Source of the DNA: Prorocentrum cordatum
Lineage: Eukaryota; Sar; Dinophyceae; Prorocentrales; Prorocentraceae
NCBI GenBank assembly: GCA_963575745.1
Contig: CAUYUJ010017838.1
Coordinates: 194,501-258,500 of the forward strand
Reading direction: 5' to 3'
Length of the DNA stretch: 64,000 nucleotides
The position numbers and the translations under genes were made by a program. Positions 17,435-53,200 of the stretch are shown in pieces. The notes under the pieces are model-generated. The model made no database searches. It was given only the letters and a program-made list of their open reading frames with translations, and was not told where the DNA came from. Positions within the stretch are counted from its first letter, which is position 1; each line of letters starts with the position of its first letter.

Positions 17435-17615
17435 CTGGGGAAACCAAAAAAGGAACCGATGCCGATCCTCCCCGGACCTCTCCTGGGGTGCGGTCTGGAC
17501 AGCATGTCACGGCGAATCCAGCCGTAGCGACGACGGCCTCCCAGGAGGCGCAAACGGAGAAAATGAGGGCATGATAACGGTATCGGTGCCATTTCCTGCT
17601 CTGAGTTGTGGTTGC
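17435..17615 (-). mobile_element. Introner-like intron, copy 1
   Basis: A 181-base intron with a GC donor (ACAG followed by GCAACC) and an AG acceptor. On minus its inner part starts GGCACCGATACCG and includes TCGTCGCTACGGCTGGATTC, then the shared CACCCCAGGAGAGGTC block. It ends GGCATCGGTTCCTTTTTTGG, then TTTCCCCAG. The two ends form an inverted repeat around ACCGATACCG. The same sequence recurs in the introns at 20172, 21132, 50237 and 52566. Confidence 0.7.
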
Positions 17616-17800
17616 CTGTCTGGTAGCGGTACTTCGCAGACTTGGCCGCGACGTTCGCGGCGAAGACGTCGCCCTGGTCCATCAGGGAGACCAGCGAGCG
17701 AAGCACCGCGTGGTGTTCCGCCCTGGGCGTGGACTGGAGCAACTCCACCGAGTAGTAGTGAAACGTGCGAAGGGACGAGAAGCTTGGAGGCGGCCAGGGG
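17616..17800 (-). CDS. Exon of an unknown protein
   Basis: The minus strand reads FHYYSVELLQSTPRAEHHAV, then LRSLVSLMDQGDVFAANVAA and KSAKYRYQ, ending at a GC donor. The helical, leucine-rich pattern would suit a repeat-type scaffold protein, but that is only an impression. It may belong to the same gene as the exons at 18460-18789 and 19927-21600. The 5' border is not fixed. Confidence 0.5.
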
Positions 17801-17802
17801 GC

Positions 17803-18168
17803 CTAGCCTACCCAGCTTCGCGCCTCGCGGGCTGCGATGCTTGATGCGCCATGATCTTCGCGCCCTGCCGCCCCCGCGCCGCCCCCTTGGAAAAGGGCAG
17901 CCGCTCTGGCCCAGGCCCCGACGCGCGAAGCGCGATTAGCTGCGCGCACCCCGCGGGTCACACAGGGCACCGGTGATGAAGTCGGTCCCCAGGACCCTCC
18001 AAGGTCCATCTGGTGCAGCGGTCCCCCTGGGATCCGTCGTTGACACGGCCCTGGTGCTTGAAAACACGGCCACCAGAGGCCCAAGAATACAAACAAATCC
18101 TGCCCGAACCCAACACCTCGGACCCACCGCCCCCCCCTGTCTGCTGGCTGGAACCACTGCTGGACCAC
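17803..18168 (-). CDS. Doubtful open frame between two better exons
   Basis: A 121-codon frame (VQQWFQPADRGGRWVRG and on) fills most of the gap between the exons at 17616-17800 and 18460-18789. It has biased composition in its second half. It could be an exon reached from an acceptor near 18165 (GTCCAGCAG) or plain intron sequence. Confidence 0.2.
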   Translation of the reverse strand: MVQQWFQPADRGGRWVRGVGFGQDLFVFLGLWWPCFQAPGPCQRRIPGGPLHQMDLGGSWGPTSSPVPCVTRGVRAANRASRVGAWARAAALFQGGGAGAAGREDHGASSIAAREARSWVG

Positions 18169-18211
18169 CTCGGACCCCCAGCCGGCTCCAGCGGGAATCG
18201 GCAGCGAGCCC

Positions 18212-18450
18212 GGGGGGGGAAGTGAGAAGGGGCGGGCCTTCCCAGAGGGCTCGGGAGTCCCCCTGCCTGCTGAGAAGTGCTCGAAATCTTCCCCGAAGAT
18301 ATGATAAATATCTATATTATATATATATATATATATATTATATATATATATATATATAAAAACTTCTCAGAAGGCCCGGAGGCTTCTGAGAAGTCCCGCC
18401 GCCTTCTGAGAGGGCCTTCTCCTTCTCACTTCCCTCCTCGCTCGCCGCCG
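18212..18450. mobile_element. Inverted-repeat element with a TA-rich core
   Basis: The left arm reads GGGAAGTGAGAAGGGGCGGG (from about 18216) and the right arm its inverse, ending GGCCTTCTCCTTCTCACTTC (about 18432). Inside are TTCTGAGAAG-type palindromes around a (TA)n core at 18310-18358. It begins nine bases or so after the GC donor that ends the exon at 18460, so it probably forms most of that intron. Related elements are at 19056-19186 and 49332-49492. Confidence 0.55.
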
Positions 18451-49492: not shown

Positions 49493-49697
49493 GGCCGACT
49501 CACCGTGCTAGAACATCCCTGGCACGACAGAGCGAATTCGGGCCCCGCACCGAGGCCGACACCGGCCTGGCAACGCCAGGGCCGCACGGCACGCGCAGAG
49601 GCCGGAGGTGTCCAACTGAACATGTCTGCCCGCCAGTGGCGAATTCTGTCCGACGGGGCAAAAGTCGAGGAACAAAGCATGAATGAAACATGACCTT

Positions 49698-49829
49698 CCA
49701 GCGGTCCGCGCGGATTTCTCGGATCTGCGCTGGAGCCCCCTGATGGCGCCTCCGGCGCCGCCCCGTGCGCACTCCGCGTGCAAGGGAGGGGGGGTCCAGC
49801 GCCGATCCAAGCAATCAACGCGCAACTCT
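49698..49829. mobile_element. Inverted-repeat element, GGATCGGCGCTGGA type
   Basis: The left end GCGGATTTCTCGGATCTGCG continues CTGGAGCCCCC; the right end GGGGGTCCAGCGCCGATCCA continues AGCAATCAACGCG. They are inverted copies of about 30 bases. A related segment is inside the introner-like intron at 21280-21345. Confidence 0.6.
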
Positions 49830-50181
49830 GAAAATGCATGTTTGCAGAACTGTTGTTCCTAGGGCTAAAACGTGTGCCCCAATTTGCGCTGCAGAGTCGA
49901 CGAGAAGGAAGCGGCAGTGGCGAGGACGGAGCACGGAGGAGGAGGTCCACCATCGGGCGGAGGGGACGAGAGAGGGATCGGGAAAGCGAGCGCTTACGGA
50001 AGATCGGCTGCATATAAATAGCTGGCTTTGCTTGCTGGGCGCCTCGAAGCGCCAGCAATGACCATGCATCGAAGAATGTGCCAAGCGGCGGGGTCGAAAC
50101 CGGTTGCGTGCAGCAGATTTCGTATAGCCCCCTTTCCATCACCCCCCACTGTTCTCCCCGACATGAGTGAGATTGGCGAGC

Positions 50182-50236
50182 TTACTCGGCGGATGCCATC
50201 AAGTTCACCTCCTCAGTGCGCAGCTGCGCGGAAGAC
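50182..50236 (-). CDS. GH7 cellulase, last exon
   Basis: 55 bases after CCCCCAG. Joined to the TG left from the previous exon, they read W, then [17 protein letters not shown] and stop. This gives the membrane protein a cytoplasmic tail of about 25 residues after the helix. The reading frame across the junction is the main proof that the intron is real. Confidence 0.7.
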
Positions 50237-53200
50237 CTGGGGGAACAACAACGAAAATACACTGCGGCGCCACTCCCCCTTTCCCAGGGTGCGTTCTCAC
50301 CAGGATCCCGAGGCGAATCTGGCCGTGGCGACGAGGGCCCCGCTGGAGGCTCCGAAGAGGCGAAGAAGCACAGAAACCGCATCGGTGATCGGTGTGCTAA
50401 TCTAAAGGCCTCCCAGATGAGGTCTGCGTAGATGGGGTCCAAGGATTCGCCGCATCGCCGATGCATCTCCGATGCGTCGGCCACATCGGCGATGCGTCGG
50501 GGATGCATCGGGGACGTCGGCGTGGCGATAATCGGCTTCCACATCGAGCCGCATCGTCGATGCTTAGGCGATGCGGCGCGACTGGACCCCCACGACCAGG
50601 CCCTGCCAGCCCTGCGCGCTCGCACCCACACCGCTGCCGCGGCCGCCAGCAGCACCGCGGGCGCCACGGCAGCCACCCACAGCGCCGGACCGTCACGAGC
50701 GCGCTGCGCGTGCGCCTCGCGCAGCGAGCTCCTCTGCACGAGGCCCGCCGGCTGCGCCGGGCCAGAGCACAGGTAAGCGCCGACCGGCGGCAGGCACTGG
50801 CTGTACGAGGGGCCCCCCTGCTGCGCGCAGGTGCAGCCGGCCTGGCAGCACGACGCGCCAGCCCAGCCGTCGCCGCCGCACTGCTGGAACACGTCCGCGC
50901 AGCCCCCAGCGGAGGCGCCCGCGCCCGCCGCCGCCGGGGCCGCCGCAGCCTGGACGGCCTGCTGTGGCAGAGGCTGCTGCGGCTGCGAAGGCTGCGGCTG
51001 CGAAGGCTGCGAAGGCTGCTGGAGCGCCTGCTGCTGCGGCTGGGCCACGGCGCCGTCGCTCACCGCGGCGACACCTCCGACCACGGCCTTGGGGAACCCC
51101 GTCGCCACGGACTGGTCTGGCTTCGCGCCCTCGCCCGCGGTGTACGTGGATCCGATCTCCCCGTACATGATGTTGAAATAGGCCACCGAGGCGTCCGGGT
51201 ACTTGGCGCGCACGTCCGCCGGCACGCCCGTGGTCTTGTCGCACGGGCCGCGCGCGACGCCCGGCGTGGAGTGGCCCCCCTTGCCCGCGTCGGAGTCGAG
51301 CCAGAGCATCTGGCACTGGTAGTCGTCCCACAGGGAGAGGACGAGCGTCATCCCGCGGCGCAGCGCCTCCCCCGTCTGCTTCAGTGCGCCCTTCTTGTGG
51401 AAGTCGTCGGGGTCGCCGAACTTGTCCTTCTGGGCGGAGCAGTACGCGTCGGTGATGGAGTCCCCGCCGTCGGAACCGAGGATGCCAGCGTTCGAGTTCT
51501 TGATGACCTTGCCGCCCTGCACGTAGAGGCGCCTTATCTCCACGAGGTCGCCGTCGTCGGTGCCGTCGTCTGTCACGAACTGGGTCACCACCGTCATCGG
51601 CTGCGTGGTGTCCACCGTGAAGTCGTCCCCCGGCCCGAAGAAGTCCTGGAGGCCATTGCGGTACGAGTTGAAGTCGCAGCCATCCTTGTCGCAGACGCCA
51701 TCGTAGCGTTCGTTCTTGGCGTTGTCGCCGCACTCCTTCCCCTTGCACAAATACGTGCCGTCGATGGTGCACGGGTGCATCGTGAAGGCCGTGGCCATGG
51801 AGTTCGCCTCCCCACGGGGAGAGGAGGATGCGCCTTCCTCCGCGTCCTCCTCTTCCTCCTGAGCGAGCGTCGAGCATCGCCGTGTTGCGAGCCGACCGAG
51901 GCGAACGGTGCGACGGGTGAGGAGCGAGCCGCAGAAGAGCGGAAGACGAGAAGCAGGGAGAGGGGCGGGGAAGGGGCGCAGGCGGAGTGGAGAAGGACGG
52001 CGGAGGGAGCAATGGGGGAGGGCTTGCTGCATGGCTGGCGCCTGCACTTGCTCTCTTGCTCCTCCTCCATGCCTGCCCGCCCCAGCCCAGGAGAGTTCGC
52101 CTCCCATATGTCAACCTCCGCACAGCACAGCCCGTACTTGCCGAGAGCTGCGCTCGTGTTCCACTCGAGGGTGTTGCTCTTGCCCTCCATGAACTTCACG
52201 TCGTGGGGGCACTGGGCGTCGCAGTAGCCTGTCCCGTACTTGGCGCCGGCCTTGTTGCCCGCGTGCTTCATCCCCCCATCCTCGTCCATTTCGCTGAAGT
52301 ACAACGCGCCGTTCAGTCCGCAAGGAAGGGTGGAGACGTCCACGTCAAAAGTGAACTCCCTGTTCAGGAGCTTGAACAGCTTATACTTGTCCGGCTTCTC
52401 CAGGACGTACAGGCGGGACCCCACGTTCGGTCCGCGCACGAAGCCCAGCTCGACGCCGCCCGGGATCGCCGCGACACCGTAGGTGCTGTCGTAGTCGTCC
52501 AGCGTGACGCCCTCCAGCGCGCAGTTCTCGGCGCAGGACTCCGGATCGGGGCACATAGTGTCGTCCTGGGGGGAGGAGCCGATACCGCTGCCCCCTGCCC
52601 TCCCAAGGTCCCTTGCGACCTGGATCGAATCCAGGGGTAGCGACGAACGACGAGTAGGTAGCGATAAGGGTATCTTTTCCTCCCCTGACGTCCCACACGC
52701 CGTCGGTGAAGCAATTGCCCGAGGTGTAGCACTGCGCGGCGGGGCCGGTGCCCTGACGCAGGGGCAGGATCAGTCAGCAGCGAGGCGGGAAATCGGATCG
52801 GATCGGAACGTGCGTCGGATGACGCGACACCGGCACGGAGTCGGAATCGAATCAGATCGGCCGCGCCAGGGCCGCATCGGTCGGTCGGAACCGAATCGGA
52901 TCGGGCTGGCCGAAGTCGGTGCAGATTGGATCGACACCATCCCTGCGTAGAGGTGGCGGTCTGCGCCCGCTGCCCAGGTGGGCGCGGTGGCGCGCGCAGG
53001 CGCGCGTCGCGCGCCGCGAAGGCCCAGCGCGCAGTCATCTTCGGGCTCTCGTGCCCAGGCACCCTGGCGAAGGGCACGCCTGGCCCAGGCCGCGAAGCGC
53101 CGTGCGCGGTTATCCTGACGCCCCTGCAAGGTGGCGTGGGCCTGAGGCCCCCGCGCCGCCCCCGCGTGGCAGGTTCGCGTCGCGATGGCGTGGGCGCCAG

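Follow-up and report, generated by a model that had tools for sequence, protein, structure and literature searches.

We provide evidence that copies of a short inverted-repeat DNA element form complete introns in the bloom-forming dinoflagellate Prorocentrum cordatum. The analysis concerns a stretch of 64,000 nucleotides (the window; GenBank assembly GCA_963575745.1, contig CAUYUJ010017838.1 or C16989, positions 194501-258500, GC content 62%), in which a preliminary description made from the sequence alone had pointed to five related segments, each thought to be a whole intron formed by an introner. We consider it probable (roughly 85%) that the segments all belong to a single family of non-autonomous DNA elements with terminal inverted repeats (TIRs), that is, an introner similar to a miniature inverted-repeat transposable element (MITE). 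Of the five proposed whole introns, two (52566 and 50237, both in a GH7 cellulase gene) are borne out and a third (21132) is probable, but those at 17435 and 20172 are not, and two donors (52566 and 21132) had been misplaced.

The relatedness of the five segments was assessed by leaving out one copy at a time and making a profile of the 170 acceptor-side bases of the other four. The fifth copy was recovered every time and on the minus strand, with held-out E-values of 5.5e-15 (21132), 1.7e-19 (17435), 2.9e-23 (20172), 9.6e-13 (50237) and 4.8e-6 (52566), against a best E-value of 0.034 over five dinucleotide-shuffled windows; these held-out values are independent, unlike those from a profile of all five copies. 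This recovery upholds the claim that the segments share sequence. The minus strand also carries the GH7 gene and, in a second gene (17-22 kb), the exon that was tested, in agreement with the proposal that all copies are in gene sense.

The family extends far beyond the window. Using the 17435 copy as a query against the whole genome (4,128,499,153 bases in 21,875 contigs) we obtained 1,505 first-look candidates, and all 40 that were scored matched, 39 of them being non-self copies at 78-86% identity. The exact right end of the element plus G is found 517 times in the genome, against 0 times for the reversed control. The copy number may be roughly 10^4 to 10^5, a very uncertain estimate based on one strong copy in 50 kb of L034-L038, no strong copies in the GH7 paralogue loci and extra copies beside five others. 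An exact-pattern search for the element in IMG/VR gave no match; two single 20-mer matches in bacterial metagenome-assembled genomes of GTDB were taken as chance.

To define the element, 29 of the 39 non-self copies were oriented and 28 were combined into a majority sequence and profile (L027 has no left end and was left out). The majority sequence is 168 bp long with imperfect inverted ends (left TCAGAGGAGGAAAAGGTACCCATACC versus right TGGGGAAACCAAAAGGTACCGATACC); a full copy of about 168 bp starts with TCAGAGG, ends with TTTCCCCA and carries a 5-bp target duplication on both sides. Inverted ends, as they had been described for the 52566 and 21132 segments, were also seen on re-examination. 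Duplications were counted by comparing the 5-mers that adjoin the boundaries TCAGAGG...CCCCA, with left and right ends of different copies as control. In a first set of 43 copies at least four of the five bases agree in 22 (2.4% in mismatched pairs) and all five agree in 13 (0.2% in mismatched pairs), where it should be noted that the boundaries had been fixed from 29 of the same 43 copies and that two members of the set, L064 and L067, are apparently duplicates of each other. For a second set the sole criterion was an exact right end followed by G; the left end could be read in 15 of the 20 copies retrieved. Here agreement of at least four bases is found in 7 of 15 copies versus 5% by chance, or in 6 of 14 without the single duplicated site represented by L080 and L081.

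The duplicated targets are not random in composition. Of the 22 clear duplications in the first set, 15 have G as base 1 (binomial 4e-4 at an assumed 31% G, with a small bias on this base as the 17435 query itself ended in that G) and 20 have a purine (G or A) as base 2; for the second set base 1 is G by selection and thus uninformative. Individual window copies had suggested duplication lengths of 3, 4 or 6 bp, which were dropped after orienting the 29 copies. Overall, the inverted ends, the target duplications and the many copies support the suggestion that the introner is a non-autonomous TIR DNA element.

The product of the window gene at 50-62 kb (minus strand) is a GH7 cellulase that bears a CBM1 domain, and the family of this gene permits the junctions to be read directly. 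A search of the same genome yielded 43 matching GH7 stretches (two of them the window) in 20 loci (one being the window), leaving 19 paralogue loci. At the 52566 site 13 of the 19 could be read base by base, all of them uninterrupted: the sequence is GTGTGGGACTCCACC in 12 loci and TCGTGGGACAAGACC in L049, and in the window GTGTGG is followed by GACG with the element and then by GACGACACT. Three further, more distant paralogues (L055, L057 and L058) are uninterrupted by translation; L051 and L056 were judged by an unbroken match alone, and L053 starts past the site. Across the junction the spliced product aligns without gaps to the four solved GH7 cellulases listed among 40 matches, and the spacing is the same in nine of nine aligned homologues, including P. 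cordatum, P. donghaiense and MMETSP proteins. At the level of gene comparison, 52566-52692 is therefore confirmed as a predicted GA-AG intron bounded by the duplicated target GGACG/GGACG. The preliminary description had placed this intron at 52566-52689, so that the intron itself stands and its donor moves to 52692: a GT donor at 52689 would add one aspartate without counterpart in the 13 paralogue loci, the four solved structures or the nine homologues, which have no room for an extra codon. The RNA fold of this intron is not striking (z -1.76).

The second GH7 case, 50237-50596, holds as it had been delimited, given that all 11 readable paralogue loci are uninterrupted at this position (Table 1). 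The paralogues confirm it as a predicted GT-AG intron bounded by the duplicated target GGTCG/GGTCT. Its insert is composite, and the left half belongs to a second, abundant GATGC-rich inverted-repeat family (genome matches to query positions 16-191). The insert as genome query gave 5,112 first-look candidates; from the 40 that were scored, 37 match the left half only, two match both halves and one is the insert itself. Both halves are co-linear in these two composite copies, hence the pairing of the two families recurs. Ends of the second family resemble TGGGGTC...GACCCCA; it was seen at approximately 50406-50581, at 20480-20620 and in L059 and L060, and recurs just upstream of the introner.

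Outside the GH7 gene, the 21132 copy shows both element ends around an inserted middle (nhmmer matches at 21224-21144, E 3.7e-17, and at 21427-21390, E 0.0048), lies between the target copies GGTGT/GGTGC and keeps the reading frame with a donor at 21437. From these features 21132-21437 is probably a whole intron, which leaves the segment proposed as 21132-21416 plausible as an intron, though with its donor shifted to the position set by the target copies. A homologue search for this gene at 17-22 kb returned one protein (P0121) among 8000 candidates scored, and none for exons 1-3 alone.

P0121 comes from a 1,246-base JGI contig, hence presumably from a transcript, and decides the status of the 17435 copy. 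Over 31 residues the protein shows no difference from the exon that ends at 17616, and it then continues in an exon at contig positions 175321-175253 (23 of 23 residues). The intron after the exon ending at 17616 is thus about 36.8 kb long with a GC donor at 17615, and the AG of the element at 17435 is unused in the P0121 message; the proposed intron 17435-17615 is refuted. Apart from one weak match, a counterpart of P0121 residues 54-349 was not seen in the 50 kb retrieved, and so the later exons lie beyond that stretch. The two ends of the 36.8-kb intron (window 17615 to C16989:175321) share AGGCA at the splice junctions. The 20172-20878 segment does not hold as a whole-intron element either, as the element makes up only its last 163 bases.

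Table 1. Features of the window that relate to the element family and the GH7 gene (window coordinates; introns and exons as predicted)
Feature	Position	Strand	Basis
GH7 exon upstream of the 52566 intron	52693..52755	-	tblastn with P0001
Predicted whole intron from the element, GA donor in left target copy, AG acceptor	52566..52692	-	Paralogues, solved GH7, homologues
Element copy of 122 bp, TCAGGGGAGG...CTCCCCCCA	52567..52688	-	nhmmer E 1.8e-9 (28-copy profile); boundaries from duplication
Left target copy GGACG	52689..52693	-	Identical to right copy
Right target copy GGACG, first G completing the AG acceptor	52562..52566	-	Sequence
GH7 exon downstream of the 52566 intron	52101..52565	-	Lower end placed within 13-bp repeat
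GH7 exon containing the CBM1 domain, upstream of the 50237 intron	50597..51807	-	Upper end placed within 13-bp repeat
Predicted whole intron in the last GH7 codons, GT-AG	50237..50596	-	11 of 19 paralogue loci readable, 11 of 11 uninterrupted: CGGGCCCGGTCTTCCGCG
Composite insert: right part 50240-50366 element, left part ~50406-50581 second family	50238..50592	-	nhmmer E 1.9e-18
Left target copy GGTCG	50593..50597	-	4 of 5 bases as in right copy GGTCT at 50233-50237
Last GH7 exon, 17 residues then stop	50185..50236	-	Paralogue P0001 ends SSAQLRSEEANLMASFE
Probable whole intron with its GT donor in the left target copy; internal insertion in the element	21132..21437	-	nhmmer, duplication and frame
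Full-length element copy, 11 bases inside the 5' end of the 36.8-kb intron	17436..17604	-	nhmmer E 1.3e-40; P0121 junction
Element copy, last 163 bases of a predicted 707-base intron	20173..20335	-	nhmmer E 8.7e-40; without target duplication

Copies elsewhere in the genome were screened by codon scores. Among 29 of them a two-sided signal was seen in L011 only; the screen is insensitive (only one window copy of the five passes it, and 50237 is among those missed) and was used solely to pick L011 and L021. In L011 the target copies are GGTGT/GGTAT and the joined frame is open for 162 codons before and 214 codons after the junction, from which we infer a putative whole-intron copy. The joined product shows 34% identity over 71 residues to an upstream unit of the same locus, which in turn matches 2OG-Fe(II) oxygenases (5e-8). 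The L021 copy appears to sit within a longer intron, nine bases in from its donor, a reading that leans on a protein motif, and the joined piece has only a sub-cutoff Pfam match. The length of open frames across empty sites was useless as a coding test, the genome being GC-rich. Similar sequence is thus found as introns in different genes (twice in GH7, probably in the second window gene and, by frame only, in L011), and intron ends coincide to the base with the ends of element plus duplication at 52566 and 50237 and probably at 21132, but not at 17435 and 20172.

These observations suggest a simple mechanism. The element, mobilized by a transposase encoded elsewhere, would insert in sense orientation into an exonic target GG(T/C/A)NN, whereby a 5-bp duplication is made. 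The exon would keep base 1 of the left copy, and the intron would be made up of the other four bases of that copy (2-5), the whole element and, from the right copy, base 1. In this scheme the donor G(T/C/A) equals bases 2-3 of the left target copy, which would explain GA at one site and GT at others, and the acceptor AG is formed by the terminal A of the element and the first G of the right copy, preceded by the pyrimidine-rich end of the element. The claim that the element supplies the 3' splice site would accordingly be half right, since the pyrimidine-rich end and the A are its own and the G stems from the duplicated target. Removal of such an intron by the host spliceosome would give back the original exon, while copies landing elsewhere would stay ordinary repeats. 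By comparison with paralogues, the junctions and duplications of this anatomy are shown in two window cases; the anatomy is probable in a third and, by reading frame, putative in the one locus elsewhere. Donor usage in P. cordatum is reported as 24.7% GT, 51.4% GC and 23.8% GA (PMC10666404).

It might further be argued, tentatively and at somewhat less than even odds, that the target choice of the transposase (its preference for G followed by a purine) itself builds the splice sites, so that intron-making would be inherent in the chemistry of transposition and not a matter of copy-by-copy selection. If true, the G-purine preference would equip most insertions with an AG acceptor, and targets of the form GG(T/C/A) would add the donor simultaneously. 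Either orientation could then work, since each end of the element begins with T and therefore ends with A on the other strand.

The alternative that survives best concerns timing only and is compatible with an introner origin: the introns may be old and have been lost from the paralogues by copying of mRNA back into the genome, which we regard as possible, with odds a little below those of the target-choice idea. Relics similar to a spliced leader are clear in nine of the 11 GH7 paralogues checked (L040-L048), with only a short end in L039 and L049. They precede the coding region, at a distance of about 100 bases from the start codon where this was located, and the paralogues that bear them are probably retrocopies of mRNA. 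More introns are present in the window gene, and the 8.3 kb examined there, of which about 4.7 kb lie upstream of its start codon, contain no exact match to the short leader motif. If the paralogues are mRNA-derived, their uninterrupted sites fix the junctions or an older state and do not date the insertion. Nonetheless, the target duplications still mark that an insertion took place, although they do not give its age, and the distant paralogues L055, L057 and L058 are uninterrupted at 52566 as well, though these are possibly mRNA-derived too. As a separate observation, the relics occur in tandem pairs in L040, L041, L042 and L048, and several GH7 paralogues are tandemly arrayed; the tandem relics are probably the product of repeated mRNA-to-genome copying. 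A gap in L054 is a run of T and not an intron.

An improbable alternative is that an ordinary MITE sits by chance in pre-existing introns and that its CCCCAG end merely mimics an acceptor. This would suit the 17435 copy, whose AG is bypassed in the single message known, the 20172 copy as part of a longer predicted intron, and L021 as we read it. At 52566 and 50237, however, the duplicated target forms both exon edges and removal of the insert restores the arrangement of the paralogues, whereas a landing in an older intron would not set both ends on exon borders.

Besides the leader relics, several further observations count against an introner reading or limit its reach. One of the five copies (17435) is no intron itself, the 20172 copy has no matching target duplication, and a clear duplication is absent from 21 of the 43 sampled copies, that is, from about half. 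At 50237 the window exon carries nine extra bases just before the site that are absent from the paralogues, and the start of the insert differs from the family's own left end. The 52566 copy as genome query found only itself and is thus far from the bulk of the family, and the joined stretch of L011 is without a Pfam or PDB match. Finally, no transcript of the window GH7 gene was found, so its junctions rest on paralogues and homologues.

The GH7 gene contains another intron, 51808-52100 (GC-AG), with a 13-bp exonic direct repeat at its borders (GGGAGGCGAACTC at 52093-52105 and 51800-51812). The site could be read in 12 of the 19 paralogue loci and is uninterrupted in all 12, and the family profile has no match there. 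Such borders would fit a transposon-free origin in which short pieces of exon are duplicated locally at splice sites, which as an account of the family is very unlikely in view of the hundreds of dispersed exact ends and of copies with inverted repeats and 5-bp duplications.

With respect to the remainder of the window, coding-like stretches at 4530-7703 (minus strand) resemble a retroelement gag-pol, one of them with a CCHC zinc knuckle recognized by eye. Long tandem repeat arrays with units of 8 bp and 90 bp occupy 41841-49181, downstream of the GH7 gene.

Summarizing, the results offer an exact and testable anatomy of one transposon family turning into introns in a bloom-forming dinoflagellate, in which bases of the element can be told from bases of the target, and this anatomy accounts for GA and GT donors alike. 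The presence of intron-bearing and intronless GH7 copies in one genome is what allows the junctions to be read. The results also hold a warning: CCCCAG ends within long introns resemble acceptors and are not always used.

The family is new and well supported, but it is of an already known kind. In P. cordatum itself, introns with inverted repeats at both ends are enriched and have been called introner elements (PMC10666404). Those were defined by simple inverted repeats; the likeness lies in inverted-repeat introns of the same species. In the open-access search results and text passages covered we found no description of the present consensus or of a 5-bp duplication for P. cordatum, and none of a splice mechanism in the passages of PMC10666404. 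Many recent introner-made introns are reported for Polarella and other free-living dinoflagellates (Roy et al. 2023, as summarized in PMC11453091); by that summary, recent introner-made introns are the shared trait. Introner elements of Amoebophrya combine inverted repeats with direct repeats of 3-5 nt across exon borders (PMC7789003). Our family resembles them in both respects and differs from their variable non-canonical splice motifs, having AG acceptors together with either GT or GA donors in the cases tested here. In Symbiodinium microadriaticum, introner family 1 has TIRs and 4-bp duplications, is said to carry the 3' splice site itself and draws its donor from the duplication; most families described there splice without a change in mRNA length, and some draw their splice sites partly from the duplication (PMC9860276). 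Compared by description only, the P. cordatum family agrees with family 1 in its inverted repeats, its target duplication and the donor drawn from that duplication, whereas its duplication is 5 bp long and its acceptor joins the A of the element to the G of the duplication.

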